NCBI GenBank assembly: GCA_018970175.1
Contig: JAGWWV010000010.1
Location: 1 to 56,016, forward strand
Origin: Acidobacteriota bacterium
GTDB lineage: Bacteria; Actinomycetota; Acidimicrobiia; Acidimicrobiales; Ilumatobacteraceae
DNA: 56,016 nt
Direction: 5' to 3'
Shown here piece by piece: positions 12,696 to 26,799 of this stretch; position 1 is the first letter of the stretch, and every line of letters begins with the position of its first letter. A program made the position numbers and the translations under genes. Below the pieces are notes generated by a model. It saw nothing but the letters and a program-made list of their open reading frames with translations, did no database searches and was not told the DNA's origin.

Positions 12696-15600
12696 CTAGG
12701 ACGCGACGGCCATCCAAATGCGTACTTCGGCTCCATCCACGGCTTCCACGTGCTGCGGCTCACCCGAACCAGTTTCAAGAAGGACGGATATCGCCAGGAC
12801 TTCCCCGGCGATCATCTCGCGGTGGGTCGCCAGTTGCCCGAGAAGTTCGGGCGGGCCGTCGATGATCACGGTGACACGATCGCTCACGTTCAAGTCGAGG
12901 GCACGACGGGTTTGCTGAAGTGTCCGGATCATGTCGCGTGCCGCACCCTCGGCCTCGAGCTCGGGTGTCACCTCGACGTCGAGGACGACGACTCCGCTCG
13001 ACGCCCCGAGCGCCGCACTGGCGCTACCCGGCGCAGCCACCAGCCTCAATGTGAACTCGCCCTCGGCCAGTCGCTCTCCGGCAACCACCGGCACTCCATC
13101 TTCGATTGTCCAGTCGCCCTTCTTCACCGCTCCGATGACGCTCTGCACACGCGCACCCAATCGCGGCCCGAGCACCTTTGGCAACACCTGCAACTCGCGT
13201 GTTGCAACCGAACCGACGTCGGTGGTGAAGACAACGTCGCGGACGTTGACCTCGTCGCGGACGATGTCGGCAAAGGCCGCGACGCCGGAAAGATCGGAGC
13301 AAGCAACGGTGAGGGTCTGCAACGGCAGACGGACGCGGCGATTGTGCGCCTTGCGAACCGACAACGCCGTCGAACACACGTCACGCACTCCGTCCATCGC
13401 GACGACCAGATTCGTGTCGGCGGGAATGTCGGCAGCCGTCGGCCAATCGGTGAGGTGCACGCTGCGCTCTCCCGTGAGGCCCCGGAAGATCTCTTCGGCA
13501 AGCAAGGGTTGCAGCGGCGCGATCACGCGTGACAGGACGTGAAGGACGGTGTGCAGCGTGTCGATTGCGTTCTGATCGCCCGACCAGAAGCGGTCGCGAC
13601 TGCGCCGTACGTACCAGTTGGTCATCACGTCGAGGAAGGACCGAATCGTTGCACACGCCTCGAACAGGTCGTACGCATCGAGCTGCGCGGTGAGGTCGGC
13701 GACGAGATCGTGGGTCTTCGCGAGAACGTACCGATCGAGAACGTTGTCGCTGCTGGTCGACCACTTGCCGGTCTTGCCGTCGGCGTTCGCGTAGAGGGAA
13801 AGGAAATACCAGGTGTTCCACAGAGGCAGCGCCACCTGTCGCACTGTCTCGCGGATACCGGCCTCGGTGACCGAAAAGTCACCGCCACGCAGAATCGGTG
13901 ACGACAACAGGTACCACCGCATGGCATCGGCACCGTACGTGTCGAACACCTTCATCGGGTCGGGATAGTTGCGCAGGCTCTTCGACATCTTCTGTCCATC
14001 GTCACCAAGGACGACACCGTGGCCGACGCACGTGGCAAACGCCGGTCGGTCGAACAGCGCGGTGGCCAAGACGTGCATCGTGTAGAACCAACCGCGCGTC
14101 TGTGCGACGTATTCGACGATGAAGTCACCCGGATAGTGGTGTTCGAACCAACTTTGGTTCTCGAAGGGATAGTGCACCTGCGCGAACGGCATCGAGCCGC
14201 TCTCGAACCAACAGTCGAGGACCTCGGGCACCCTCCGCATCATCGACTTGCCCGTCGGATCGTCGGGGTTCGGGCGAACGAGGAGGTCGATCGACGGGCG
14301 GTGGAGATCGGACACCTCGACACCGAAGTCGGCCTCGAGCTGCGCGACGCTTCCGTACACATCGATTCGGGGATACGTCGGGTCGTCGCTCTTCCACACC
14401 GGAATGGGGGACCCCCAGAAGCGATTGCGGCTGATCGACCAGTCGCGTGCGTTCGCCAACCACTTGCCGAATGTTCCGTGCTTCAGGTAGTCGGGAACCC
14501 AGCGAATTTGTTCGTTCAGTTCCACCATTCGGTCGCGGAACTTCGTCACCTCGACGAACCAGCTGGAGATCGCCCGATAGACGAGCGGTTGCGCACACCG
14601 CCAGCAATGCGGATACGGGTGGTCGTAGCTGTCGTGACGCACGACGTGGCCCGCATCCTTCAGGTGGCGAATCACCTGGGGATTCGCCTCGAACACGTGG
14701 GTGCCGACCCACGGCGTGATCTCGGACGTGTAGCAACCCTTTTCGTCCATCGGGCAAATGGTCGGAATGCCGACCGCGTTGCAGGCGTTCTGGTCGTCTT
14801 CACCGAAGCCCGGCGCCATGTGGACGACGCCGGTGCCGTCTTCGGTCGTCACGAATTCACCGGGCAACACCCGGAACGCATTCGGCGTGTCGGAAAGGAA
14901 CGAGAAAAGGGGCGCATATCTGCGCCCGACGAGTTCGGAACCCTTCAGCGTGCCGACACGCTCGGCACCCTCGAGCTCCTTTTCGTACGACCCGAGGCGC
15001 GCTTCGGCCAGGACGTAGCTGCGACCATCGACGGCCTTCATCACCGCGTAGTCGATGTCGGGCCCCACCGCGAGCGCGAGATTCGACGGGAGTGTCCACG
15101 GTGTCGTCGTCCAGGCGAGAATGCGCTCACCGGTTTCGAGCTCGAACCACACGGTGAGCGCCGGGTCCTGGCGGTTGCGGTACACATCGTCCATGCGGGT
15201 TTCGGTGTTCGACAGCGGCGTCTCGCAACGCCAGCAATACGCAAGCACCCGAAAGCCTTCGTAGACGAGCCCCTTGTCCCACAGCGTGCGGAACGCCCAC
15301 ATGACACTTTCCATGTAGGACAGATCGAGGGTCTTGTAGTCGTTTTCGAAGTCGACCCACCGTGCCTGGCGCGTGACGTAACGCTCCCACTCGTTCGTGT
15401 ACCTCAGCACGCTCGTACGACAGGCGTCGTTGAACTTGTCGATACCGAATCGCGCAATCTCGGGGTGACCCGAGATGCCGAGTTCCTTTTCCGCCTCCAC
15501 CTCGGCCGGCAGACCGTGACAGTCCCAACCAAACCGCCGCTCGACGCGTCGACCGCGCATCGTCTGGTACCGCGGTACCGCGTCCTTCACGAAGCCGGTG

Positions 15601-15794
15601 AGAAGGTGTCCGTAGTGCGGAAGTCCGTTCGCGAAAGGAGGACCGTCGTAAAAGACGAATTCGTTCGACCCGTTGTCACCCGCAGCTCGCTGGTCGACCG
15701 AGGCGACGAACGTTCGGTCGGCTTCCCAAAACGCCTGAACCGCACCCTCGAGGGCGGGAAAGTTGGGTTGCGGGTCGACCTTCGGGTAGGGCAC
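12696..15794 (-). CDS. ileS: Isoleucyl-tRNA synthetase, type 2
   Basis: Charges tRNA-Ile in the cytosol; 1032 residues. The class I HIGH-like motif is [12 protein letters not shown] (residues 52-63), the KMSKS loop is at 602-606, and the editing (CP1) domain shows TTPWTLPSN and [15 protein letters not shown]. The motif [17 protein letters not shown] and the long C-terminal domain without a zinc tail mark the eukaryote-like IleRS2 group, typical of actinobacteria and often mupirocin-tolerant (family knowledge, not tested here). The start is GTG; TACCCT 8 nt upstream may be a -10 element. It follows yggT by 30 bp, so it could share the division-cluster transcript. Confidence 0.97.
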
Positions 15795-15824
15795 GGCTCT
15801 GCAGGGTATTGGTTCTGCGGAAAA

Positions 15825-16085
15825 TCAGGCGATTCCGCAGCGCAGGATGAGCCGACCAACGACGAACTGGAGGGCCAAAATCACCACGATCGGCGAGAGG
15901 TCGAAGCCCCCGAGCGGTGGAAGAAAGCGCCGCGCGTAGCCGAGAAGTGGTTCGGTGACCTTCCACAGCACGTCGTGGATCTTGCTCATCGGCCCGCCGC
16001 TGCGCAACGGGAACCACGACAGGATGATGCGCACGAAGATGACGAGCACATAGATGTTGAGAACCGAACAGAGAAGTTCGCGCAT
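15825..16085 (-). CDS. yggT: YggT family membrane protein
   Basis: An 86-residue protein with two hydrophobic segments, VLNIYVLVIFVRIILSWF and LSPIVVILALQFVVGRLIL, joined by a short loop containing DVLWKVTEPLLGYARRFLPP. This is the YggT repeat that normally follows sepF in Gram-positive division clusters. The function is poorly defined; a link to division or envelope homeostasis is inferred from synteny. It sits 15 bp after sepF. Confidence 0.9.
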   Translation of the reverse strand: MRELLCSVLNIYVLVIFVRIILSWFPLRSGGPMSKIHDVLWKVTEPLLGYARRFLPPLGGFDLSPIVVILALQFVVGRLILRCGIA

Positions 16086-16100
16086 GGGGGGCCTCGTTAA

Positions 16101-16631: not shown

Positions 16632-16654
16632 GAGTGAAAGGTTACCCGAGCCCT

Positions 16655-17338
16655 TCAGTCCGAACGGGGACGTTCCCCGAAGATTCCCGACCCCACGCGC
16701 ACGATGGTGGCACCTTCCTCGAGCGCAATACGAACGTCATGCGTCATCCCCATCGACAACTCGACGACACCGAGGTCGCGAGCAATCTGTGCCGTCAGGC
16801 GGAAGGCACCGCGAGTCGCCACCGGGTCGGCATCGGTCGGGCCCATGGTCATCAGACCCTCGACGACCAACCCGGCGGCGCGCGCCGCACCGACTACCTC
16901 GGTGACTTCGTCGGGTGTACACCCCGACTTCTGGTCTTCGGCCGTCGAGTTGACCTGCACGAGGATGCGTGGTGCCGCACCGAGACGCTCGGCCTCCTTT
17001 GCAAGCGCCGCCACGACCGATGCGCGATCGACCGTGTGCCACAGCGCGACGTGCGCGGCGAGCGACTTCACCTTGTTCGACTGGAGGTGCCCAATGAAGT
17101 GGACCGGCAACGGGGGCGACCCGCCCGTCTGGCGCACCTTGTCGAGAAGTTCCTGTGCGTAGTTCTCCCCCACCGCATCACAACCGCATTGCGCAGCGAG
17201 ATCCCACGTCTCGACCCCGAACGTCTTGGTCACGGCAACGATGCGCGCGGCATGGGCATCTCCCCGTGTCTCGGAGATGAGACGTCGAAGTTCGGCGACA
17301 CGCCCTGCGACGACTTCGCGCGGTGGCGCTGTGGTCAC
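16655..17338 (-). CDS. yggS: YggS/PLPBP family pyridoxal-phosphate homeostasis protein
   Basis: A 227-residue single-domain alanine-racemase-like barrel that binds PLP and influences vitamin B6 and amino-acid pools without a clear catalytic activity. The PLP lysine lies in [45 protein letters not shown] and [28 protein letters not shown] are family blocks. The start is a GTG 27 bp after the ftsZ stop. Placement between ftsZ and sepF is standard for actinobacteria and firmicutes. Confidence 0.94.
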
Positions 17339-17365
17339 TGTGATGACCGCCGAATGCGGCGGGTC

Positions 17366-18454
17366 CTACTTGAGGAACGACGGAACGTCGAAATCGTCGT
17401 CACCGCTCGTGTCGAGCGGGTCCTTGCCGGCGAGAGTGTCGCGCACGACGGGGCGTGGCTGCGCGTCGGCCGAACGGAGAGCGGCACGCTTTTGCTCACC
17501 CGCTTCCCAGCGATCGAAACCGGCGGCGATGACGGTGACACGGATTTCGTCGCCAAGTTCGTCGTCGATGACGGTACCGAAGATGATGTTTGCGTCGGGG
17601 TGAGCCACACCGTGAACGACCTCGGCGGCCGCATTCATCTCGAAAAGACCCATGCTGGACGGGCCGGAGATGTTGAGGAGAATACCCCTCGCCCCGTCGA
17701 TCTGGGCTTCGAGCAACGGGCTGGTGATGGCGGCCTTGGCGGCGACCACCGCGCGGTTGTCGCCGCTGGCGTGGCCGATACCCATGAGGGCCGTGCCGGC
17801 GTTGCTGAGAATCATCTTCACGTCGGCGAAGTCGGTGTTGACGAGCCCCGGGGTCGTGATCAGGTTGGTGATACCGGAGACACCGTCGAGCAGGATGTCG
17901 TCGGCCATCTTGAACGCGTTCAACAGACTCGTCTTGTCGTTGGCGACGGTGAGCAGCCGGTCGTTCGGGATCACGATCAGCGTGTCGACTTTTTCCTTCA
18001 ACTTCTGGATGCCGTTGTCGGCCTGGGTTGCGCGACGTCGTCCCTCGAAGCTGAACGGCCGCGTGACGACACCAATGGTGAGCGCACCGAGCGAACGGGC
18101 GATCTCTGCAATGACGGGAGCGGCACCGGTGCCGGTGCCACCACCCTCGCCGGCGGTGATGAACACCATGTCGGCGCCGCTGATCATCTCTTCGATTTCG
18201 TCGCGATGTGCCTCGGCTGCCGACGCACCGACTTCGGGGTTGCTGCCCGCGCCGAGACCACGCGTGAGATCACGACCGATGTCGAGCTTCACGTCGGCAT
18301 CGGACATGAGAAGGGCCTGTGCGTCGGTGTTGACGGCAACGAACTCGACCCCTTTCAGACCGGCGTCGATCATGCGGTTGACGGCGTTGACTCCGCCGCC
18401 GCCGACACCGACGACCTTCATGACTGCGAGATAGTTCTGGGGCGCTCCGGCCAT
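17366..18454 (-). CDS. ftsZ: Cell division GTPase FtsZ
   Basis: Tubulin-like GTPase forming the Z ring at midcell; 362 residues. It has [18 protein letters not shown], the GTP signature GGGTGTG at residues 104-110, and the T7 synergy loop NTDFAD at 206-211. The C-terminal peptide [10 protein letters not shown] docks SepF and other partners. The linker between core and tail is short (roughly 40 residues). The start ATG follows GGAGG with 9 nt spacing. A 111-bp gap to ftsQ could carry a separate promoter, though I could not identify a convincing -35/-10 pair. Confidence 0.98.
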
Positions 18455-18565
18455 GGGCCAAGACCTCCGGGAGATCGAATAAATGGTGGGGTTATCTTTC
18501 CACGTTGGGCCGCAAAACTGGTGAATACCGCCAACATTCGTCGATCGAGGCCGCGCAACTTCGGA

Positions 18566-19633
18566 TCAACGGCCCGCGAGAATCGGGTCGCCGCTCGACA
18601 AATCGATGCCCTTCAGGCTCTGCGGGTCGGTTCGCCGCAACACGAGTACGAGCGACACCATCTTCGAGCGCAGATCCGTCGGTCGCCCGAACGTGACGAC
18701 GGCCCCCGAGCGCAGCGTCATCACGAGATCCGTCCCGCCGACGACCCCCATGTTCAACATGAGCGGGGCCACCTCGGGGGGAAGCGAGGCGGCGACCTGG
18801 GCAGCGGCGGTGTAAACATCGTCGGCCTGACCGCCAGCGGCAAGGTCGGGACCAATCCCGGTGATCTGGGTGTAGCCCGTCGGCTGGCCGTTCAAGACCG
18901 TGATGACTCGGCCGTCGATGTCGATCACCCGGGCCTGGTTGTCCGAGCCGAGGTACCACGCGATCGGTTTGCGTTCGAAGACGTCGAAAAAGACGGTGGA
19001 GGGAAAGCGGCGCTTCACCTGGGCGTCGCGGACCCATGGATCGGTCTTCAGGAACGATTCGACCGCACCGAGGTCGACGCTGAAGATCGATTTTCCGCGC
19101 ACCATTTCGTCGGCCTGCGCGATGGTCGCCTGTGCCGTGTAACGCACGCCGTCGATGGACACGTTGCGGACACCGAAGATGGGCGACGCAAGAATCGCGA
19201 GCACAACGCCAACTGCGACCAGCGGAATACCGATCCACGCGACAACCCGCAAACGTCGACGCCCCTCCTCGCGGCGCACGGCGATGCGCCGCAGTCGGAA
19301 CCTCCGGTCGCGTTTCACGACACCGTCGCTGTCCTCGATCGGCCGCAGGACGGGACCCGTGAGTTCGGCGTCTTCGATGACGAGCGGCGGTCTGGTTGCG
19401 CGAGTGAGCTCGTCGTCGGACACCAGGTCGAAACCGTCGATCAGTACGGTCTCGGTTTCGCTTCCGGCCACCACCGCGGGCTCGGGGCGCGCAGGAACCT
19501 CGACGGAGTGCTTTTCGAACGCAGTTGTCAGTTCGTCGAGGACGTCGGCGGGAACGTCGCTGACGGCGCGAACGACCGGCACCTCACCCGTCGTTCGCGG
19601 TGTGCCATCCTCGGGGGTCTTGTCGTTGCTCAT
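18566..19633 (-). CDS. ftsQ: Cell division protein FtsQ (POTRA domain)
   Basis: A bitopic divisome scaffold linking FtsL/FtsB to later proteins; 355 residues. It has a long cytoplasmic acidic N-terminus (to about residue 115), one membrane segment VVAWIGIPLVAVGVVLAILA, then a POTRA domain (IFGVRNVSIDGVRYT, KTDPWVRDAQVKRRFPSTV) and the beta domain ending near VTFGRPTDLRSKM. The ATG at 19633 is preferred; an in-frame GTG six codons upstream (19651) sits in a near-duplicate of the start region (GTATGAGC occurs twice). It follows the Mur fusion by 63 bp. Confidence 0.92.
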   Translation of the reverse strand: MSNDKTPEDGTPRTTGEVPVVRAVSDVPADVLDELTTAFEKHSVEVPARPEPAVVAGSETETVLIDGFDLVSDDELTRATRPPLVIEDAELTGPVLRPIEDSDGVVKRDRRFRLRRIAVRREEGRRRLRVVAWIGIPLVAVGVVLAILASPIFGVRNVSIDGVRYTAQATIAQADEMVRGKSIFSVDLGAVESFLKTDPWVRDAQVKRRFPSTVFFDVFERKPIAWYLGSDNQARVIDIDGRVITVLNGQPTGYTQITGIGPDLAAGGQADDVYTAAAQVAASLPPEVAPLMLNMGVVGGTDLVMTLRSGAVVTFGRPTDLRSKMVSLVLVLRRTDPQSLKGIDLSSGDPILAGR

Positions 19634-19696
19634 ACGTGGCTCATACGTCACTGGCCGTGCTCGGCGAGGACCAGCCTTGCAGCCACGCCGCGCTTG

Positions 19697-22600
19697 TCAT
19701 CGTTTTTGCGCTTCTTCGCCCGCAGGACCCGCGAACGGCAGACCGGGAGGAAACCCGACGAGCCGTACTTCACTGCGCAGTGACAACCCCTCGGCTTCGA
19801 GAACGCGCCGATGGACCTCGAGCATGACGCGCACGACGTCGGTGCTGAGTGCACCCGGGTCGGCCTGGATGAAGTTCGCATGCTTGTCGCTGACGGCCGC
19901 ACCACCGATGCGCAGACCCCGAAGACCGAGCCTGTCGATGATCTCGCCCGCCGACCGCGCACCGTTGTCGGGGTTCACGAAGACCGACCCCGCGTTCTGC
20001 CCACCCGGTTGGTTGTCGCGCCTCCAACGCACGATGTCGGCGATCTTCTCGTCGCCGCATCCGGGCACCGCACCACGCAGGACCATCCGAACGCTCACGA
20101 CGACGTGATGGTCGTCGAGGTCGGACCCACGAAACCGCAGGCCCAGGTCCTTCACACCGAGACGCGAGGCCCGACCGGTGCGCAGGTCGACCACGTCGAC
20201 ATCGACGAGTGACGCAACCATGTCGGAGCCGTGCCCGCCGGCGTTCATCCGAACCGCGCCACCCACCGTGCCCGGCACGCCGACCGCCCATTCGAAGCCC
20301 GATACGCCGAGCGAGCTCAACTGACGCGCCGCGACGGGCAACGGCGTCGCTCCGCCAACTTCGACCACGACGTCGACATCGGGCCGAACATCCCCCACCA
20401 GGCGAACGCCGGTCGCGAAGTCGCCGAGGACGAGACACAGCCCGCCAAAGCCGACATCCGACACCAACATGTTGCTTCCACGGCCGAGAACGACGACGGG
20501 GACGGCAGAATTCCGAAGCGACGCCGCGACCGTGGCGAGTTGATCGACGTCGTGAACGGTGACCAGCGCCCGCGCCGCACCGCCGGTCTTGTACGTCGTA
20601 CGTTCACCCATCGGTGAATGTTCCGCGACGTCGACACCGGACGCGCGAAGGTCGACCACGATTCGGCGGACGTCGGCTTCGACCATCACGTCGTCGGGGA
20701 AGGTTTCGATGTCCCCGCAACCGAACGACACGCAGGCGTCGCCTTCCCGCAATTCATCGACGACGGCCGTGATCAGGTCGTTTCGCGTCGGGCACCACCG
20801 CACGTCGGTCCCCGGGTGTGCCGCAACGATGGCATCGACGACCAGACGGCCCGTCACCCCCGGTATTGGCTGCGTGCCCGATGCGTAGATGTCGGTCACG
20901 AACACCACGTCGGCGGCAACGAAGGCATCACGGTATTCATCTGACATCGCCGCCATACGGTGAAACCGATTCGGCTGGAACACCGCGACGAGTCGTCGTC
21001 CGGCGAAGGCCCCCGATCGGGTCGACCCGAGCACCGCGGCAATTTCCGTTGGAAGGTGTGCGTAGTCGTCGACCAACACCGCACCACTTCGTTCCCCACG
21101 AATCTCGAACCGGCGACCGACACCCCGAAACGACGACATCGCTGCGAGACAGTCGTCGAGCCGTGCGCCGAACCGCAGCGCGAGGACCAAGGCGGCGGTC
21201 GCGTTCAGTGCATAGTGACGCCCGTGCGCCCGCAGCGCCACCGAAACTCGCCCTTCTTCGAACATGTCCCGCGCGCGGGACGACACATCGATATCGAACG
21301 TGAGGTGCGCGACACCCTGCACCACGTTCGACACCCGAACGTCGGCCTCTTCGGCTTCGCCGTACGTCACGACGTCGCGTCCGATTGCGCGAAGTTCGTG
21401 AGCCAGCCGCGACAGCACCGCATCGTCGGCGCACAACACGAGTGGCCCCTCGACTGACCGGGCGAACCGTTCGAAACTCTCTCCGATTGCGCCAACGGAA
21501 CCGAAATGATCGAGGTGATCGACGTCGACGTTGGTGAGAATCGCGGCAGTGACGGGCAGCTTCTCGTGCGTACCGTCGCTTTCATCCGCTTCGACGACGA
21601 AGGGTCGGCCCTGCACCCATGCGCCGTTCGTGCCAAGGTCGGGGGCGTCTCCCCCGACGACGAATCCGACCTTGCCCGCACCACCCAACATGACCGCGAG
21701 AAGTGCCGACGTCGATGTCTTGCCGTGAGTCCCCGCAACCGCAAGCGTCGGACCCTGTGCACAGATGGCGGCGAGCATGTCGGCGCGTGTCAGTGCGGGA
21801 ATTCCACGTTCGCGAGCCGCCGCCATCTCGATGTTGTCGGCCGGAACCCCGGACGAAGCGCATACCGCATCGCAGCCGTCGACGAGCGATGCGCGGTGCC
21901 CGATGCTGACGTCGATTCCTTCTGCACGCAGGGCCGCCACGACGTCGCTCTCGCGCACGTCGCTGCCCGACACCACATGACCCGCCCCGTGAAGCGCGCG
22001 CGCGAGGGCGCTCATTCCGGGGCCGCCGATGCCAACCACGTGCAACCTGCGACGTGACCCGAGGTCGACCACTGCGGTCGGCTGCGTCCGGCCCGTGCCG
22101 AGAATGGCGTCGACGAGACGGGGTCCACGGTGGATGTCGCCGACCATGTGCGCTGCCGCAGCGAGCCGTTCGCGTCGGGCGGGGTCGGAGCGCAGCGCGA
22201 CGATCTCCGCGGCGAGTCGATCCGTCGAGAGTTCGCGTTCGGTCACCAAGACCGCGCCGCCGACGGACGACAGTTGTCGCGCGTTGTGTTCCTGATGATT
22301 CTCCGCCGCGCCGGCCCAGGGCACGATGACCGCCGGGATTCCCACCGTGGCGATTTCTGCAACGGTGCTCGCGCCGGCGCGAGTGACCACGATGTCACAG
22401 GCCGCATACAACGCCGTGATGTCGTGTTGATACGGCACGCGAATGTGCCGCTCGGTCGACGAGTCGGGCGTGGCGAAGCGCGGACCGGTGACGTGATACC
22501 ACCACACGTCACGAAGTGCATCGGGCGGTTCGGTCGACAGCGACTCGACGATGCCGTTCAGGACACCCGAGCCGAGTGATCCACCCATCACGCCGACCAC

Positions 22601-23179
22601 GAAGCCGTCGGCGGGCAAGCCGAGAAGCCTCCGTGCTCGCTCGCGTTCGGCACCACGGTCGAGGCCCCGCACCGCCCGACGCACGGGCGCTCCGGTGAGA
22701 ATCGCGTCGTCGAGAGGCGACGTCGGGTCGGCAACCGTGACTGTGTCGGCATGTTGGGCCTGACGGCGGGTGGCAAGGCCCGGACGCGAGTCGTACGAGA
22801 CCACGACTGTGCGGATCCCGAGAGACCGCGCGGCGTGCATCGCCGCGAGACTGCCGTAGCCCCCGACCGAAACGACGATGTCCGGCCGCAGGTCGGCAAG
22901 GAGCGCTCGGCACGTCCGCCGAGCGGCCGCAAGACGCGCGGCGCTGCCCAGGTTGCCGACGATCGCGCGTGGCCGCAACGACCGCGCGAGTCCGGTGACG
23001 GGCAGAAGCGTGTGCGGATATTCGGTATCGCCGAGAATCTGCCCGTCGACACCGCGCAAGGTACCGACGATGTGAATGTCGGACGCCGCGACTCCCCGGT
23101 CTTCGAGCATCTCGGCGATTGCGATCGCGGGCAACACGTGGCCACTGGTGCCGCCGCCCGTGATGACGACGGTCGTCAC
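19697..23179 (-). CDS. murG-murC-murB: MurG-MurC-MurB trifunctional fusion protein
   Basis: One uninterrupted frame of 1160 codons encodes three peptidoglycan enzymes in cluster order. Residues 1 to about 363 are MurG (lipid II GlcNAc transferase): GGGTSGHVLPA, GGYGSLAAM, RAGASTVAEI, ENHQEHNA. Residues about 376-835 are MurC (UDP-MurNAc:L-Ala ligase): HVVGIGGPGMSALA, P-loop GTHGKTST at 483-490, EADESDGTH, DDYAHLPTE. Residues about 845-1160 are MurB (UDP-GlcNAc-enolpyruvate reductase, FAD): GRGSNMLVSD, GVPGTVGGAVRMNAGGHG, NAGSVFVNP with the catalytic Ser, SDKHANFIQ, and a C-terminal Glu in LRSEVRLVG. The linkers are short (about 10-15 residues). GTG or ATG codons near the junctions lack Shine-Dalgarno sequences. 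Confidence 0.93.
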   Translation of the reverse strand: MTTVVITGGGTSGHVLPAIAIAEMLEDRGVAASDIHIVGTLRGVDGQILGDTEYPHTLLPVTGLARSLRPRAIVGNLGSAARLAAARRTCRALLADLRPDIVVSVGGYGSLAAMHAARSLGIRTVVVSYDSRPGLATRRQAQHADTVTVADPTSPLDDAILTGAPVRRAVRGLDRGAERERARRLLGLPADGFVVGVMGGSLGSGVLNGIVESLSTEPPDALRDVWWYHVTGPRFATPDSSTERHIRVPYQHDITALYAACDIVVTRAGASTVAEIATVGIPAVIVPWAGAAENHQEHNARQLSSVGGAVLVTERELSTDRLAAEIVALRSDPARRERLAAAAHMVGDIHRGPRLVDAILGTGRTQPTAVVDLGSRRRLHVVGIGGPGMSALARALHGAGHVVSGSDVRESDVVAALRAEGIDVSIGHRASLVDGCDAVCASSGVPADNIEMAAARERGIPALTRADMLAAICAQGPTLAVAGTHGKTSTSALLAVMLGGAGKVGFVVGGDAPDLGTNGAWVQGRPFVVEADESDGTHEKLPVTAAILTNVDVDHLDHFGSVGAIGESFERFARSVEGPLVLCADDAVLSRLAHELRAIGRDVVTYGEAEEADVRVSNVVQGVAHLTFDIDVSSRARDMFEEGRVSVALRAHGRHYALNATAALVLALRFGARLDDCLAAMSSFRGVGRRFEIRGERSGAVLVDDYAHLPTEIAAVLGSTRSGAFAGRRLVAVFQPNRFHRMAAMSDEYRDAFVAADVVFVTDIYASGTQPIPGVTGRLVVDAIVAAHPGTDVRWCPTRNDLITAVVDELREGDACVSFGCGDIETFPDDVMVEADVRRIVVDLRASGVDVAEHSPMGERTTYKTGGAARALVTVHDVDQLATVAASLRNSAVPVVVLGRGSNMLVSDVGFGGLCLVLGDFATGVRLVGDVRPDVDVVVEVGGATPLPVAARQLSSLGVSGFEWAVGVPGTVGGAVRMNAGGHGSDMVASLVDVDVVDLRTGRASRLGVKDLGLRFRGSDLDDHHVVVSVRMVLRGAVPGCGDEKIADIVRWRRDNQPGGQNAGSVFVNPDNGARSAGEIIDRLGLRGLRIGGAAVSDKHANFIQADPGALSTDVVRVMLEVHRRVLEAEGLSLRSEVRLVGFPPGLPFAGPAGEEAQKR

Positions 23180-23186
23180 GCAAACC

Positions 23187-24401
23187 TCACTTCATGTTGC
23201 GCGCAACGTTGAGCAGGAGACCCGCCGCTGACATCGACACGAGGAGTGAACTGCCGCCGTAGGAGATGAACGGAAGCGTGAGTCCGGTAACGGGCATCGT
23301 CGCAGTGACACCACCGATGTTGATGAATGCCTGCACTGCGAACCATGACGTAATTCCACCAGCAATCAGGGCCCCAAAGACGTCTCTCGCTCCGAGAGCC
23401 GCCTGAATGCCGAAAAGAACGAGCCCGAGGAACATTCCGAGCACGGCAATGACGCCGAGAAGGCCGAATTCCTCGGCGACGATGGCGAAAATGAAGTCAC
23501 TGTGTGCGAGGGGGACATAGCCCCACTTACCCGCGCCCTCACCGACGCCGACACCGGTCAATCCTCCGTTGGCGATGCTGATCATCGATTGATACACCTG
23601 GTAGCCGAGGTGGCCCTTGGTCTCGCTCAAGTTGAGGAACGACGTCCAGCGCTGGCGGCGGTAATCACTCGGCAGCACCGACAGAATGCCGAGCACGGCC
23701 ATCGCGGTTCCCGCAGAGACGAGAACCGACATCCGCATGCCCGAGATGAAGAGCACGCCGAAGATGATCGCCGCGAACACGATGGCACTCCCGAGGTCGC
23801 CCTGGAGCACGCACAGACCCGAGGCAACCATCAGAAAGAACATGACGGGCCAGAAAGTGCGCCGAAGGTCGTCGACTTCGCGGAAACGTTCGGCCAACAC
23901 CTTCGCACAGACGAGAAGCACGGCGATCTTCAGGAACTCCGACGGCTGGAAGCCGAGCACGCCGGTGCCTACCCACGCGCGCGCACCGCGCACCTCGACA
24001 CCCCAACCCGGGACGAACGGAAGGAACATCCCGAAAACGCCGACGGCGAAGATGATCGGTGCCCACTTCTTCCAGATGATGTAGGGCGTCCGATACATGA
24101 AAAACATCATGAACGCGCCGATGGTCGCCCAGAAGAGCTGCTTGTTGAACATGTAGAGCGGCGAATTGCCGCTGTGGAGCATGGTGACCGACGACGCGGA
24201 GAGAACCATGACCAAGCCGAACATCACGAGCAGGATCGTGAAAGCGAGAATGCCGTAGAAGGCCGCCGGCGGCGGACCCGACGCGAGTTTGCGGTTCGAC
24301 GCGATACCCGTGCGCTCGAGCGTCGCCCTGCGGCGCTCGGCGACGCTCATGTTTCCCTTCATGGCGGGTCCGAGATTTGCAGGTTTCATCACGGAAGTCA
24401 T
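23187..24401 (-). CDS. ftsW: SEDS-family peptidoglycan glycosyltransferase FtsW
   Basis: A septal glycan polymerase working with FtsI; 404 residues and about ten membrane helices. Signatures are FGLVMVLSASSVTML in the first helix, FQPSEFLKIAVLL, LQGDLGSAIVF, HSDFIFAIVAEEFG and TGLTLPFISYGGSSLLVSM. The N-terminal 50 residues are cytoplasmic and basic. ATG 24401 overlaps the murD stop as ATGA, which sets the start although the frame is open to 24506. It lies 7 bp before the MurG start, and MurG supplies its lipid II substrate. Confidence 0.96.
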   Translation of the reverse strand: MTSVMKPANLGPAMKGNMSVAERRRATLERTGIASNRKLASGPPPAAFYGILAFTILLVMFGLVMVLSASSVTMLHSGNSPLYMFNKQLFWATIGAFMMFFMYRTPYIIWKKWAPIIFAVGVFGMFLPFVPGWGVEVRGARAWVGTGVLGFQPSEFLKIAVLLVCAKVLAERFREVDDLRRTFWPVMFFLMVASGLCVLQGDLGSAIVFAAIIFGVLFISGMRMSVLVSAGTAMAVLGILSVLPSDYRRQRWTSFLNLSETKGHLGYQVYQSMISIANGGLTGVGVGEGAGKWGYVPLAHSDFIFAIVAEEFGLLGVIAVLGMFLGLVLFGIQAALGARDVFGALIAGGITSWFAVQAFINIGGVTATMPVTGLTLPFISYGGSSLLVSMSAAGLLLNVARNMK

Positions 24402-25753
24402 TGATCCCCTCCGGCATGGTCGGTGATGCCCAGGTGTCGGCGCACGAGCCGAGCGAAGTCGCGTCCCCGCTCTTCGTAGTTGCGGTACCAGTCGAAACTC
24501 GTGCAACCGGGCGACAGCAACACGACGTCGCCCGCCGAGGCGAATGCCGCGGCACGGGCGACTGCTTCATCCATCGACGACGCGAGCGCCGACGGGCAGC
24601 GACCACCGAAATGGCCCACGACTTCGGCTCCGCTCTCGCCGATACCGACGACGGCCTTCACGGCGGTTCCCGCGCTGGCGATACCCGAGAGGTCGAGGTC
24701 CTTGTTGCGCCCGCCGGCAATGAGCACGATCGAGGGAAACGCCCGCAGGGCAGTTGCCACGGCGTGAGGGGACGTCGCCTTGGAATCGTCGTACCACGCG
24801 ACCCCGTCGGCCTCGGCGACCAACTCGATGCGATGGTGCGACGGCCTGAACGTGGCAAGGGCCGCGGACACGCCCGCCAGCGACCCGGCCCCCGACTCGA
24901 GCACGATCGCCGCCGCAGCGAGAGAATTCGTGACGTCGTGCGGCAGCGAACGCGGCATCGCCGCGGCGGCGATGAGCTCCGAGCCACCCGCACTGAGACA
25001 GCCGTCGCGACACGTGTAGGGATCGTCGCTCCCGACGCCGAAGGTGACCGTTCGCGCACGTGTTGCACGCGCCGCCGCAACGATCGACGGGTCCGCAGAC
25101 GGTGCAACCGCAACGTCACCGGAACGCGCCGACGCCCAGATACGAGCCTTGGCCGTGCGGTACGACGGCATGTCTAGGTGCCAGTCGAGGTGATCGGGGG
25201 CGAGATTCAGCCAGGCCCCCGCCTCGACCCGGAAGTCGTGCGTGAGCGCGAGACGAAAGCTCGAGCATTCGACGACGAAGACGTCGACGTCGTCGTCGAG
25301 CGCCGCGATGAGCGGCGTCTCGGTGTTTCCCACCGCCGCGGCACGACGACCCGACTCACGGATCATCGCCGCGGCGAGGAGCGTCGTCGTCGTCTTGCCG
25401 TCGGTGCCGGTGATGCCGAGCATCGGACGCGGACCCCCGGCGCGCTGCTGTTCCCAGCGATACGCAAGTTCGATTTCGGAGAGCATCTCGCAACCTGCGT
25501 CGCTTGCAACCGCGAACACAGGATGCGACTCGGGAATGCCGGGTGCCGGCATCACGAAGTCGACGTCGCGCACGAGACCCGACAGCGTTCCGAGGTCGGG
25601 AGCGACGTGCAACTCGACACCGAGATCGACGGCAAGAGCGTCGTGTGCCGGGTTCGACTTGTCGTCGACGAGAACCGGTTCGATGCCACGCGACGCGAGT
25701 GCCCTGGCGACCGCATTTCCCGCGATTCCGAGACCGAACACGAGCGCCTTCAA
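24398..25753 (-). CDS. murD: UDP-N-acetylmuramoyl-L-alanine:D-glutamate ligase
   Basis: Adds D-Glu to UDP-MurNAc-L-Ala in the cytosol with ATP; about 451 residues. It has an N-terminal Rossmann-like domain (LVFGLGIAGNAVARAL), the ATP loop GITGTDGKTTTT, the EPDHLDWH block (here NLAPDHLDWH), GVAWYDDSKATSPHA and the C-terminal AGGRNKDLD. The start is TTG at 25753, 7 nt after AGGTGG. A second TTG at 25759 overlaps the mraY stop as TTGA but is too close to that Shine-Dalgarno sequence. The gene is coupled to ftsW through ATGA. Confidence 0.94.
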   Translation of the reverse strand: MKALVFGLGIAGNAVARALASRGIEPVLVDDKSNPAHDALAVDLGVELHVAPDLGTLSGLVRDVDFVMPAPGIPESHPVFAVASDAGCEMLSEIELAYRWEQQRAGGPRPMLGITGTDGKTTTTLLAAAMIRESGRRAAAVGNTETPLIAALDDDVDVFVVECSSFRLALTHDFRVEAGAWLNLAPDHLDWHLDMPSYRTAKARIWASARSGDVAVAPSADPSIVAAARATRARTVTFGVGSDDPYTCRDGCLSAGGSELIAAAAMPRSLPHDVTNSLAAAAIVLESGAGSLAGVSAALATFRPSHHRIELVAEADGVAWYDDSKATSPHAVATALRAFPSIVLIAGGRNKDLDLSGIASAGTAVKAVVGIGESGAEVVGHFGGRCPSALASSMDEAVARAAAFASAGDVVLLSPGCTSFDWYRNYEERGRDFARLVRRHLGITDHAGGDQ

Positions 25754-25755
25754 CG

Positions 25756-26799
25756 TCAACCCACCTGCCGGGTGAAATCGCCGATGAAGACCGCGAGCGC
25801 AGTTGCGACACAGATGCCCTGGATGATCCAGAACCTGATGATGACGCTCGTCTCGGGCCAACCAACGAGCTCGAAGTGGTGGTGGATCGGCGACATGCGC
25901 AGGAGCCGCTTCTTGCGACCCGAAGCCTTGAAGACGCCCATCTGCACCGCGACGGACCCGGCCTCGAACACATTGATGCCGCAGATCAGGACGAGGAGGA
26001 GATGGGTGTTCGTGGTGACGGCGAGAAGACCGAGGGCCGCGCCGATACCGAGCGCGCCGACGTCACCCATGAAGATCTTCGCTGGTGCCGCGTTCCACCA
26101 GAGGAATCCGCCGCACGCGCCGGCGAACGCCGCGGAGAGAACCGCGAGGTCGAGCGGGTTCACCAGCCCGTAGAGCTCGGGGTTACGGAAAGCCCAGTAC
26201 GCGATGATGGTGTAAGCGAGGAACGACAGCAGTGCCGATCCACCGGCGAGACCGTCGAGACCGTCGGTGACGTTGACCGCGTTGGTTGCGCTCCACACCA
26301 TGACGGCACCCCACACCACCCAGACGGGCCAGGGCAGCTCCCAGCCGGGGTTGTCGGCGCGCACGATCGAAAACGTCTCGCTGACGTTCGTGGCCGCAGC
26401 GAGCCACCACAAGAAGAGCACCGTGAGACCGAAGGTGACGTAACCCTTCTTCTTCCAGAAGATGCCGCGGTTGTGCGCCTTGCGCACCTTGATGAAGTCG
26501 TCGAGGAAACCCATCGCCGCCATGACGACGATGCACACCCACATGATGAGGGCCTGGTCGGAGAACGCAAGGCCCTTGCGGAAATGGGCAACGGCCCAAC
26601 CGACGAACGCGGAGGCGACGATCGCGACACCGCCCATCGTCGGCGTTCCCTGCTTGTAGATGTGGTGGGTGGGCCCGAGGTCTTCCTTGCCGAGAATCGG
26701 CTGGCCGTGCCCGATGCGGCGGAAGAACGTGATCAGGTACCGGGTGCCGAAGAGCGACACGAGCATTGCCACTGCCCCACCGATGAATACTGCGATCAA
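25756..26799 (-). CDS. mraY: Phospho-N-acetylmuramoyl-pentapeptide transferase
   Basis: Membrane enzyme making lipid I from UDP-MurNAc-pentapeptide and undecaprenyl phosphate; 347 residues and ten predicted helices. Blocks are GPTHHIYKQGTPTMGG, AMGFLDDFIKV, TNAVNVTDGLDGLAGG (Mg-binding Asp cluster) and MGDVGALGIGAALG with the following HHHFELVGW. The start is TTG at 26799, overlapping the murE stop as TTGA, with GGGAGG 7 nt upstream. Directly abutting murE is unusual because murF normally lies between. Confidence 0.96.
   Translation of the reverse strand: MIAVFIGGAVAMLVSLFGTRYLITFFRRIGHGQPILGKEDLGPTHHIYKQGTPTMGGVAIVASAFVGWAVAHFRKGLAFSDQALIMWVCIVVMAAMGFLDDFIKVRKAHNRGIFWKKKGYVTFGLTVLFLWWLAAATNVSETFSIVRADNPGWELPWPVWVVWGAVMVWSATNAVNVTDGLDGLAGGSALLSFLAYTIIAYWAFRNPELYGLVNPLDLAVLSAAFAGACGGFLWWNAAPAKIFMGDVGALGIGAALGLLAVTTNTHLLLVLICGINVFEAGSVAVQMGVFKASGRKKRLLRMSPIHHHFELVGWPETSVIIRFWIIQGICVATALAVFIGDFTRQVG

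Follow-up and report, generated by a model that had tools for sequence, protein, structure and literature searches.

A predicted MurG-MurC-MurB protein and related fusions in compact-genome Acidimicrobiia

Results

The stretch of DNA analysed here, which we call the window, is the whole of contig JAGWWV010000010.1 (56,016 nucleotides) from assembly GCA_018970175.1, labelled Acidobacteriota bacterium and placed by its GTDB lineage in the Ilumatobacteraceae of the Acidimicrobiia. The genome, G000, is a 2.25 Mb draft in 121 contigs and is 89.7% complete. On the reverse strand of the window murG, murC and murB, the genes of three enzymes of lipid II synthesis, form one frame:

19697..23179 (-): single murG-murC-murB frame, 1160 aa; GTG start at 23179, TGA stop at 19697-19699
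22094..23179 (-): MurG domain, lipid II synthase, GT28, residues 1-362 (Pfam; NCBIfam, below the curated cut-off; 3s2u)
22055..22093 (-): MurG-MurC linker, residues 363-375; model of low confidence at 364-367
20678..22054 (-): MurC domain, UDP-N-acetylmuramate (UDP-MurNAc):L-alanine (L-Ala) ligase, residues 376-834 (Pfam, TIGR01082, 1p3d)
20642..20716 (-): MurC-MurB joint, residues 822-846; modelled by AlphaFold2 as an unbroken helix
20645-20677 (-): MurC-MurB linker proper, residues 835-845
19730..20644 (-): MurB domain, UDP-GlcNAc-enolpyruvate reductase, residues 846-1150 (Pfam, TIGR00179, 4pyt)

No internal stop interrupts the 1160 codons of 19697-23179 (-), and the predicted chain has a mass of 121.1 kDa. 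At the window's G+C content of 0.644, a simple independent-base estimate puts the chance of an unselected open frame of 1160 codons at ~5e-14. An earlier sequence-only reading of this DNA had described a single stop-free frame with full MurG, MurC and MurB motif sets, arranged in the usual gene order, joined by short linkers (residues ~363-376 and 835-845) and preceded by ftsW 7 bp upstream; the codon count, the Pfam matches, the motifs and the coordinates agree with it on every one of these points.

Each third of the chain can be recognised by profile, motif and predicted fold. Pfam places Glyco_transf_28 at residues 4-147 and Glyco_tran_28_C at residues 195-342 of the MurG part, at 98.6 and 72 bits against gathering scores of 22 and 26.2, followed by Mur_ligase, Mur_ligase_M and Mur_ligase_C across residues 379-821 and by FAD_binding_4 and MurB_C across residues 870-1141. 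The NCBIfam profiles for murC (TIGR01082, 390.8 bits, cut-off 335.1) and murB (TIGR00179, 163.2 bits, cut-off 144.5) are both passed. All 26 motif residues inspected are present, and 23 of the 26 columns are invariant among the alignment rows that cover them: in MurG, H14, S201, R267, E275, Q296 and N299 are kept in 31/31 rows; in MurC, K487, T488, E530, H555, H655, N659, R689, H708 and R738 are kept in 35/35, with N550 in 34/35 and D705 in 33/35 (both present in the window protein); and in MurB, S1065 is kept in 33/34 and E1137, R1017, Y863 and N903 in 31/31. We take the MurG motifs (GTxGHV, GGSLG, RAGA..E and HQ.NA), the MurC P-loop GTHGKT with the Mur ligase signature residues, and the catalytic Ser, Glu and flavin adenine dinucleotide (FAD)-site residues of MurB to have the functional roles usually ascribed to them.

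An AlphaFold2 model of the whole chain, built from 75 sequences (the window protein and related loci), has a mean predicted local distance difference test score (pLDDT) of 90 and a predicted template modelling score (pTM) of 0.68. The MurG third superposes on Pseudomonas aeruginosa MurG 3s2u (Z 37.2, root-mean-square deviation [rmsd] 2.6 over 323), the MurC third on Haemophilus influenzae MurC 1p3d (Z 40.2, rmsd 2.4 over 452) and the MurB third on 4pyt (Z 33.4, rmsd 2.0 over 298). Among the 50 matches listed for each of two fold searches, no solved chain unites two of MurG, MurC and MurB.

The frame recurs in other species. A search for relatives around the window, covering 41 genomes including G000, found orthologous stop-free triple frames that read through both joints in G001 (75% identity) and G011 (74%; 96% complete, 171 kb contig), which are metagenome-assembled genomes (MAGs) seemingly of different projects. 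Measured between domain matches, the MurG-MurC linker spans 39, 51 and 48 nt and the MurC-MurB linker 33, 36 and 36 nt in G000, G001 and G011, respectively; the differences are multiples of three, and the frame is kept. The sequence-only reading had proposed a search for conserved full-length fusions and for sequencing indels at the two junctions, and both checks came out in its favour, the former also in three genomes of another genus, g40 (G166, G152 and G155). One uninterrupted frame over several Mur enzymes is thus kept between species, which is what marks fused Mur enzymes. A simple Nei-Gojobori script gave ratios of nonsynonymous to synonymous divergence (dN/dS) of ~0.05-0.16 over the parts compared. 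Between G000 and its nearest relative, G010, dN and dS were 0.05 and 1.00 for the MurG part and 0.07 and 0.76 for the MurB part; between G001 and G011 they were 0.114 and 1.02 for MurG, 0.108 and 1.07 for MurC, and 0.114 and 0.72 for MurB. These values show strong purifying selection on the domain parts compared.

MurG, MurC and MurB are presumed to be essential enzymes. In seven genomes (G000, G001, G010, G011, G166, G152 and G155), drafts whose completeness of 62-96% bounds the search, there was one profile match each for MurG and MurB and no second copy of either. MurC gave one match above the cut-off in six of the seven, the G010 assembly lacking the middle of the gene. G000 has four further TIGR01082 matches, all below the cut-off, which were inspected singly in that genome: three are murE, murD and murF, and the fourth is the C17 match. 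Because a second copy of each enzyme was not found in the draft genome, the fusion would supply all three activities.

To place the frame within the family we searched 221 genomes, and genus g40 a second time (32 genomes). The states of the joints come from 91 hand-picked genomes, not a random draw, comprising all 13 of the window's genus (g1), 20 of g3, parts of g5, g9 and g40, and between one and four genomes from every other genus read; 80 further named loci, many of them the same genomes, were classified but left out of the counts. Named relatives include Ilumatobacter and Desertimonas, and several isolate names read as lake metagenomes. MAGs of the group titled Bifidobacterium breve or Ferrithrix thermotolerans (L044, L050, L085 and others) are probably mislabelled records.

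Within g1, the MurC-MurB joint could be read in 12 genomes and is fused in all of them; MurG and MurC are fused in three (G000, G001 and G011). The nine others have a stop after murG and the murC ATG 14-16 nt further on (L005-L012, L016), in frame in seven, so that few changes would join the two genes; that ATG is lacking in the g1 triples. The sequence-only reading had held that junction stops in relatives would speak against a fusion. Such stops do occur, in 9/12 g1 genomes at the MurG-MurC joint and in 0/12 at the MurC-MurB joint, and since the three fused genomes and G010 form one clade they date the fusion and do not refute it. In g40, the triple was present in 3 of the 13 neighbourhoods read, and the wider search found a stop-free triple frame in only these 3 of 32 genomes, G162, G175 and G177 giving at most one match. 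Partial and alternative fusions mark other genera. MurG-MurC is fused in 20/20 g3 genomes and in 1 of the 14 g5 genomes that show the joint (G192, on a long branch), and two-enzyme frames of this kind include L037:3523-6054 (-), L180:6758-9244 (-) and L249. MurB-FtsQ is fused in all g3 (19/19) and g5 (14/14) genomes that show this joint, as well as in both g9 genomes read. Over the whole set the fused fractions are 27/89 for MurG-MurC, 15/90 for MurC-MurB and 35/85 for MurB-FtsQ. No FtsW-MurG fusion was seen in 88 genomes, and no fusion at all in the genomes read from the other genera and two outgroups (among small-genome genera, g2 0/1, g13 0/4 and g30 0/4).

The MurB-FtsQ proteins are arguably more surprising than the triple itself. 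Three single frames were examined with Pfam:

L049:8562-10631 (+): MurB-FtsQ single frame
L040:1970-4180 (-): MurB-FtsQ single frame
L233:1988-4066 (-): MurB-FtsQ single frame

All three contain FAD_binding_4, MurB_C and the FtsQ-type POTRA_1, and L233 also FtsQ_DivIB_C. MurB is the N-terminal partner, 285-708 nt separate the MurB and FtsQ matches, and sequences read by eye show a long tail plus a run of hydrophobic residues between MurB and POTRA. The N-terminus of FtsQ is cytoplasmic, and a cytoplasmic MurB attached to it would be topologically sensible.

How often the fusions arose was judged from a FastTree species tree of FtsW, MurD and FtsZ from 88 genomes (G147, G018 and G195, with too little sequence, being omitted) and from parsimony of joint states over 83-87 rows. 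Parsimony gave seven changes in all, four at MurG-MurC, two at MurC-MurB and one at MurB-FtsQ, and every one of them falls in a single 62-genome clade of g40, g1, g5, g9 and g3 (support 93, inner fork open). The triple, present in 6/87 rows, required two changes. G000, G001, G011 and G010 form one clade in the species tree, and in a Mur-domain tree of 36 genomes each triple clade stays within its own genus. Joining the six triples, a constrained group defined by architecture, into one clade was rejected by 194.5 log units (approximately unbiased [AU] test, p 1.2e-54; LG+G4, quick search). Since the triples sit in two separate tree positions and a single clade is rejected, the triple arose twice. 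The change counts alone are indifferent to direction; we read fusion as a gain, not a loss, because genomes outside the clade generally have the genes unfused.

Beyond the family, and within the window's phylum, we sampled the class with 395 genomes at E <= 1e-145 and the phylum with 396 at E <= 1e-120; at least 26 and at least 11 family members, respectively, are among the matches listed. No stop-free triple frame was found outside the family at these cut-offs, which would miss more diverged triples or ones split by contig ends, as in G010; one class genome and 29 phylum genomes outside the family matched, with a stop inside all 30 chains. G729 (L249), from another family of the phylum, has a stop-free MurG-MurC frame with MurB separate, and the pair fusion therefore occurs outside the family too.

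The fusion stands among the following genes of the window:

23187..24401 (-): ftsW (TIGR02614, 358.1 bits, above the cut-off; start picked by us)
18566..19651 (-): ftsQ (open reading frame, neighbourhood and Pfam of fused homologues)
17366..18454 (-): ftsZ (TIGR00065, 409.6 bits)
24398..25765 (-): murD (TIGR01087, 359.7 bits; start picked by us)
25756..26799 (-): mraY (TIGR00445, 256 bits)

The unfused ftsW ends 7 bp upstream of the fusion frame, and ftsQ, a gene of its own in G000 and without an NCBIfam match at 1e-20, begins 45 bp past the TGA of the fusion. The N-terminal tail of FtsQ (window ~19400-19651 (-)) has a VPxxVLxELxxxF-like motif in many, not all, of the aligned genomes, in fused and unfused FtsQ alike; it is possibly where a partner protein of the division or Mur machinery binds. 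The murF gene lies outside the division and cell wall (dcw) cluster, in which murE borders mraY at ~26796-26799. In G000 it is at G000:C50:15745-16962, and in 8/8 family genomes searched the murF match above the cut-off is located on a different contig or hundreds of kb away. Two long open frames run antisense to genes of the window, one of 1049 codons at 16634-19783 (+) opposite the yggS-ftsZ-ftsQ region and one of 693 codons at 14019-16100 (+) opposite an ileS-like coding sequence; given the window's G+C content, both are probably shadows of the coding strand.

Discussion

The explanation that we strongly favour is that the frame encodes a genuine trifunctional enzyme, created by stop loss in a compact operon, in which MurG tethers MurB and MurC to the membrane. 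The open frame, its conservation, its intact domains and motifs, the lack of a second copy in the genomes searched and the two tree positions are matters of observation. From these sequences we infer that the fusion is translated and stays one full-length, active chain. In terms of chemistry, MurB makes UDP-MurNAc, to which MurC attaches L-Ala; MurD, MurE, MurF and MraY act next, and MurG then makes lipid II (PMC6420597, PMC4803751 and PMC8657477). MurG, which converts lipid I to lipid II and is a peripheral membrane protein elsewhere, would hold MurC and MurB beside MraY and FtsW; the sequence-only reading had likewise proposed a tethering to MurG beside FtsW. The MurB and MurC steps are the sole consecutive pair in the chain, so that a direct hand-over of UDP-MurNAc may be possible at their joint. 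As for the route, MurC and MurB of g1 would have been joined before the genus diversified, the murG stop then being lost in one subclade, and the same triple would have arisen separately in g40.

Several points weigh against this interpretation. The fusion is a prediction from sequence; the fused genomes are drafts, and those that can be named are MAGs. In the nearest relative, G010, contig ends break the gene, leaving residues 1-212 (92% identity) and 899-1153 (88%) at two contig ends, both open to the edge, so that the full chain is unconfirmed there and G010 was not scored as a triple. The MurG third matches TIGR01133 over its full length at 204.6-209.6 bits, under the equivalog cut-off of 250.25. 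This is typical of the lineage, because six unfused MurG of relatives, including those of Ilumatobacter nonamiensis and Desertimonas flava, stay below the cut-off as well (195.6-238.5 bits); we name this third MurG by best match, fold, motifs and operon, with the reservation that the TIGR01133 cut-off is missed. The pTM of 0.68 leaves the relative arrangement of the three bodies open, and we claim no orientation. Channelling does not explain the MurG-MurC joint, because these steps are not consecutive; this joint could only fix the place and ratio of the enzymes, and MurG is separate in 9/12 g1 genomes, so that the joint is dispensable. Shine-Dalgarno-like strings precede some in-frame starts near the joints in other triples. 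Moreover, had stop loss in compact genomes produced the fusion as a neutral by-product, the sequence would be no different.

That the open frame is itself an artefact, a stop or indel having been lost at a joint of a draft assembly in 121 contigs, is vanishingly improbable: it is repeated in two diverged species with linker indels in threes, and again with the same architecture in a second clade of three genomes, so that for the clade as a whole an artefact is practically refuted. Only slightly less remote is a single ancient origin of the triple, or transfer of the fused gene from one genus to another. The identical domain order in both triple clades would suit such a history, but each clade is nested in its own genus in both the FtsW-MurD-FtsZ and the Mur-domain trees, on which grounds we rejected it; the linkers, moreover, are unlike in length and sequence, and a single origin would require the fusion to have been lost again and again across most of each genus. 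It is also improbable that separate proteins are made from the open frame through internal starts or proteolysis. In-frame GTG, TTG and ATG codons do lie near both joints, some preceded by a Shine-Dalgarno-like string (GAGG and GGAG in G011, GGAG and AGGA in G152, and GGAGG, within the MurC coding part, in G155). Yet no such string stands before in-frame starts near either joint in G000 or G001, no 4-mer of this kind precedes the in-frame starts within 60 nt of the MurG-MurC joint of G000, and none is conserved between the triple genomes. The ATG that follows the murG stop of unfused relatives is missing from the g1 triples, and internal starts would in any case add shorter products while the full chain remained.

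A rival of a different order accepts the single chain and concerns only its cause, which makes it compatible with the trifunctional enzyme that we favour: the fusion may be a neutral by-product of shrinking intergenic space, with tethering bringing nothing. We regard this as a serious possibility, about as likely as a benefit of tethering where the cause is concerned, and one that leaves the nature of the protein as it is. It fits the location of the fusions in small-genome genera, the 14-16 nt between murG stop and murC ATG in nine unfused g1 genomes (in frame in seven), the fact that every joint follows gene order, and the lack of succession between the MurG and MurC steps. Less easily reconciled with it is the distribution of the seven changes, which spread over three joints within one 62-genome clade and spare FtsW-MurG, together with the absence of fusions from other small-genome genera, of which few genomes were read. 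No reversal is seen, either, in the groups marked by a fusion (20/20 for MurG-MurC in g3, 35/35 for MurB-FtsQ in g3, g5 and g9, and 12/12 for MurC-MurB in g1).

Pair fusions of Mur enzymes have precedents, one of them in 'C. gilvus', the genus of which is presumably Cellulomonas. The triple resembles them in part. As far as the accessible text of these papers goes, the 'C. gilvus' protein is a murG/murC fusion, likened here by description and not by sequence, which has the same order and comes from an actinomycete, and MurB is not reported as part of it; an ftsW/murG fusion is noted in 'K. flavida' (PMC4929429), and a murG/murC fusion is mentioned also in PMC6420597. The sequence-only reading was right to name MurB-MurC and MurC-Ddl as precedents, its list being incomplete by this murG/murC case. 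The MurC-MurB fusion of Verrucomicrobium spinosum complements Escherichia coli murB and murC mutants (PMC4803751) and is described as essential (PMC12283558). Like ours it is a single chain in which MurC precedes MurB; unlike ours it belongs to another phylum, lacks MurG and has a linker of ~100 residues, compared with ~11 here in a modelled continuous helix (PMC4803751). In Bordetella, where MurE and MurF are fused and MurG is proposed as a scaffold, cytoplasmic Mur steps are likewise covalently joined, and MurG binds MurE-MurF non-covalently, whereas here it is joined covalently to MurC and MurB (PMC6420597). The MurC-Ddl fusion of Chlamydia/Chlamydiae (PMC4803751, PMC12283558, PMC5814848) also links MurC to a pathway enzyme that acts neither directly before nor after it, with another partner and in another lineage. 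The MurB-FtsQ proteins of g3, g5 and g9 share family and operon with the triple and likewise build MurB into a longer polypeptide that reaches the membrane, the difference being that the partner is a division protein. The sequence-only reading knew of no MurG-MurC-MurB protein, and we too found no description of one, or of MurB-FtsQ, in the literature outside subscription papers and protein databases, as far as the available portions extend. Those of PMC8871954, PMC4921024 and PMC8657477 hold nothing on such fusions, and in those of PMC4324946 and PMC7231273 the hyphenated Mur names concern gene order, not fusions; unremarked database entries of both architectures may exist. What is new relative to the known pair fusions is that a third enzyme has been added, that this happened twice, and that it did so within a series of alternative fusions. 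The two origins of the triple, the genus-wide MurC-MurB fusion and the MurB-FtsQ fusion of related genera had no place in the sequence-only reading.

Whether MurG scaffolds the cytoplasmic Mur enzymes is an open question; the support that PMC6420597 gives for such a complex consists of co-localisation and two-hybrid results, binding data and pair fusions. Here, part of such a complex would be contained in one chain. We tentatively propose that compact-genome Acidimicrobiia have repeatedly fused the soluble start of precursor synthesis to the membrane, MurB being anchored by way of MurC to MurG in two lineages, and to FtsQ in a third. If so, selection would repeatedly have favoured a lipid II assembly line kept at the membrane, and where FtsQ is the anchor, precursor synthesis and cell division would be covalently linked, the MurB-FtsQ proteins physically tying precursor supply to the division machinery. 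The triple, having evolved twice beside relatives with two-enzyme and single-enzyme versions, offers a ready comparison series for asking whether the enzymes gain from being held together at the membrane.

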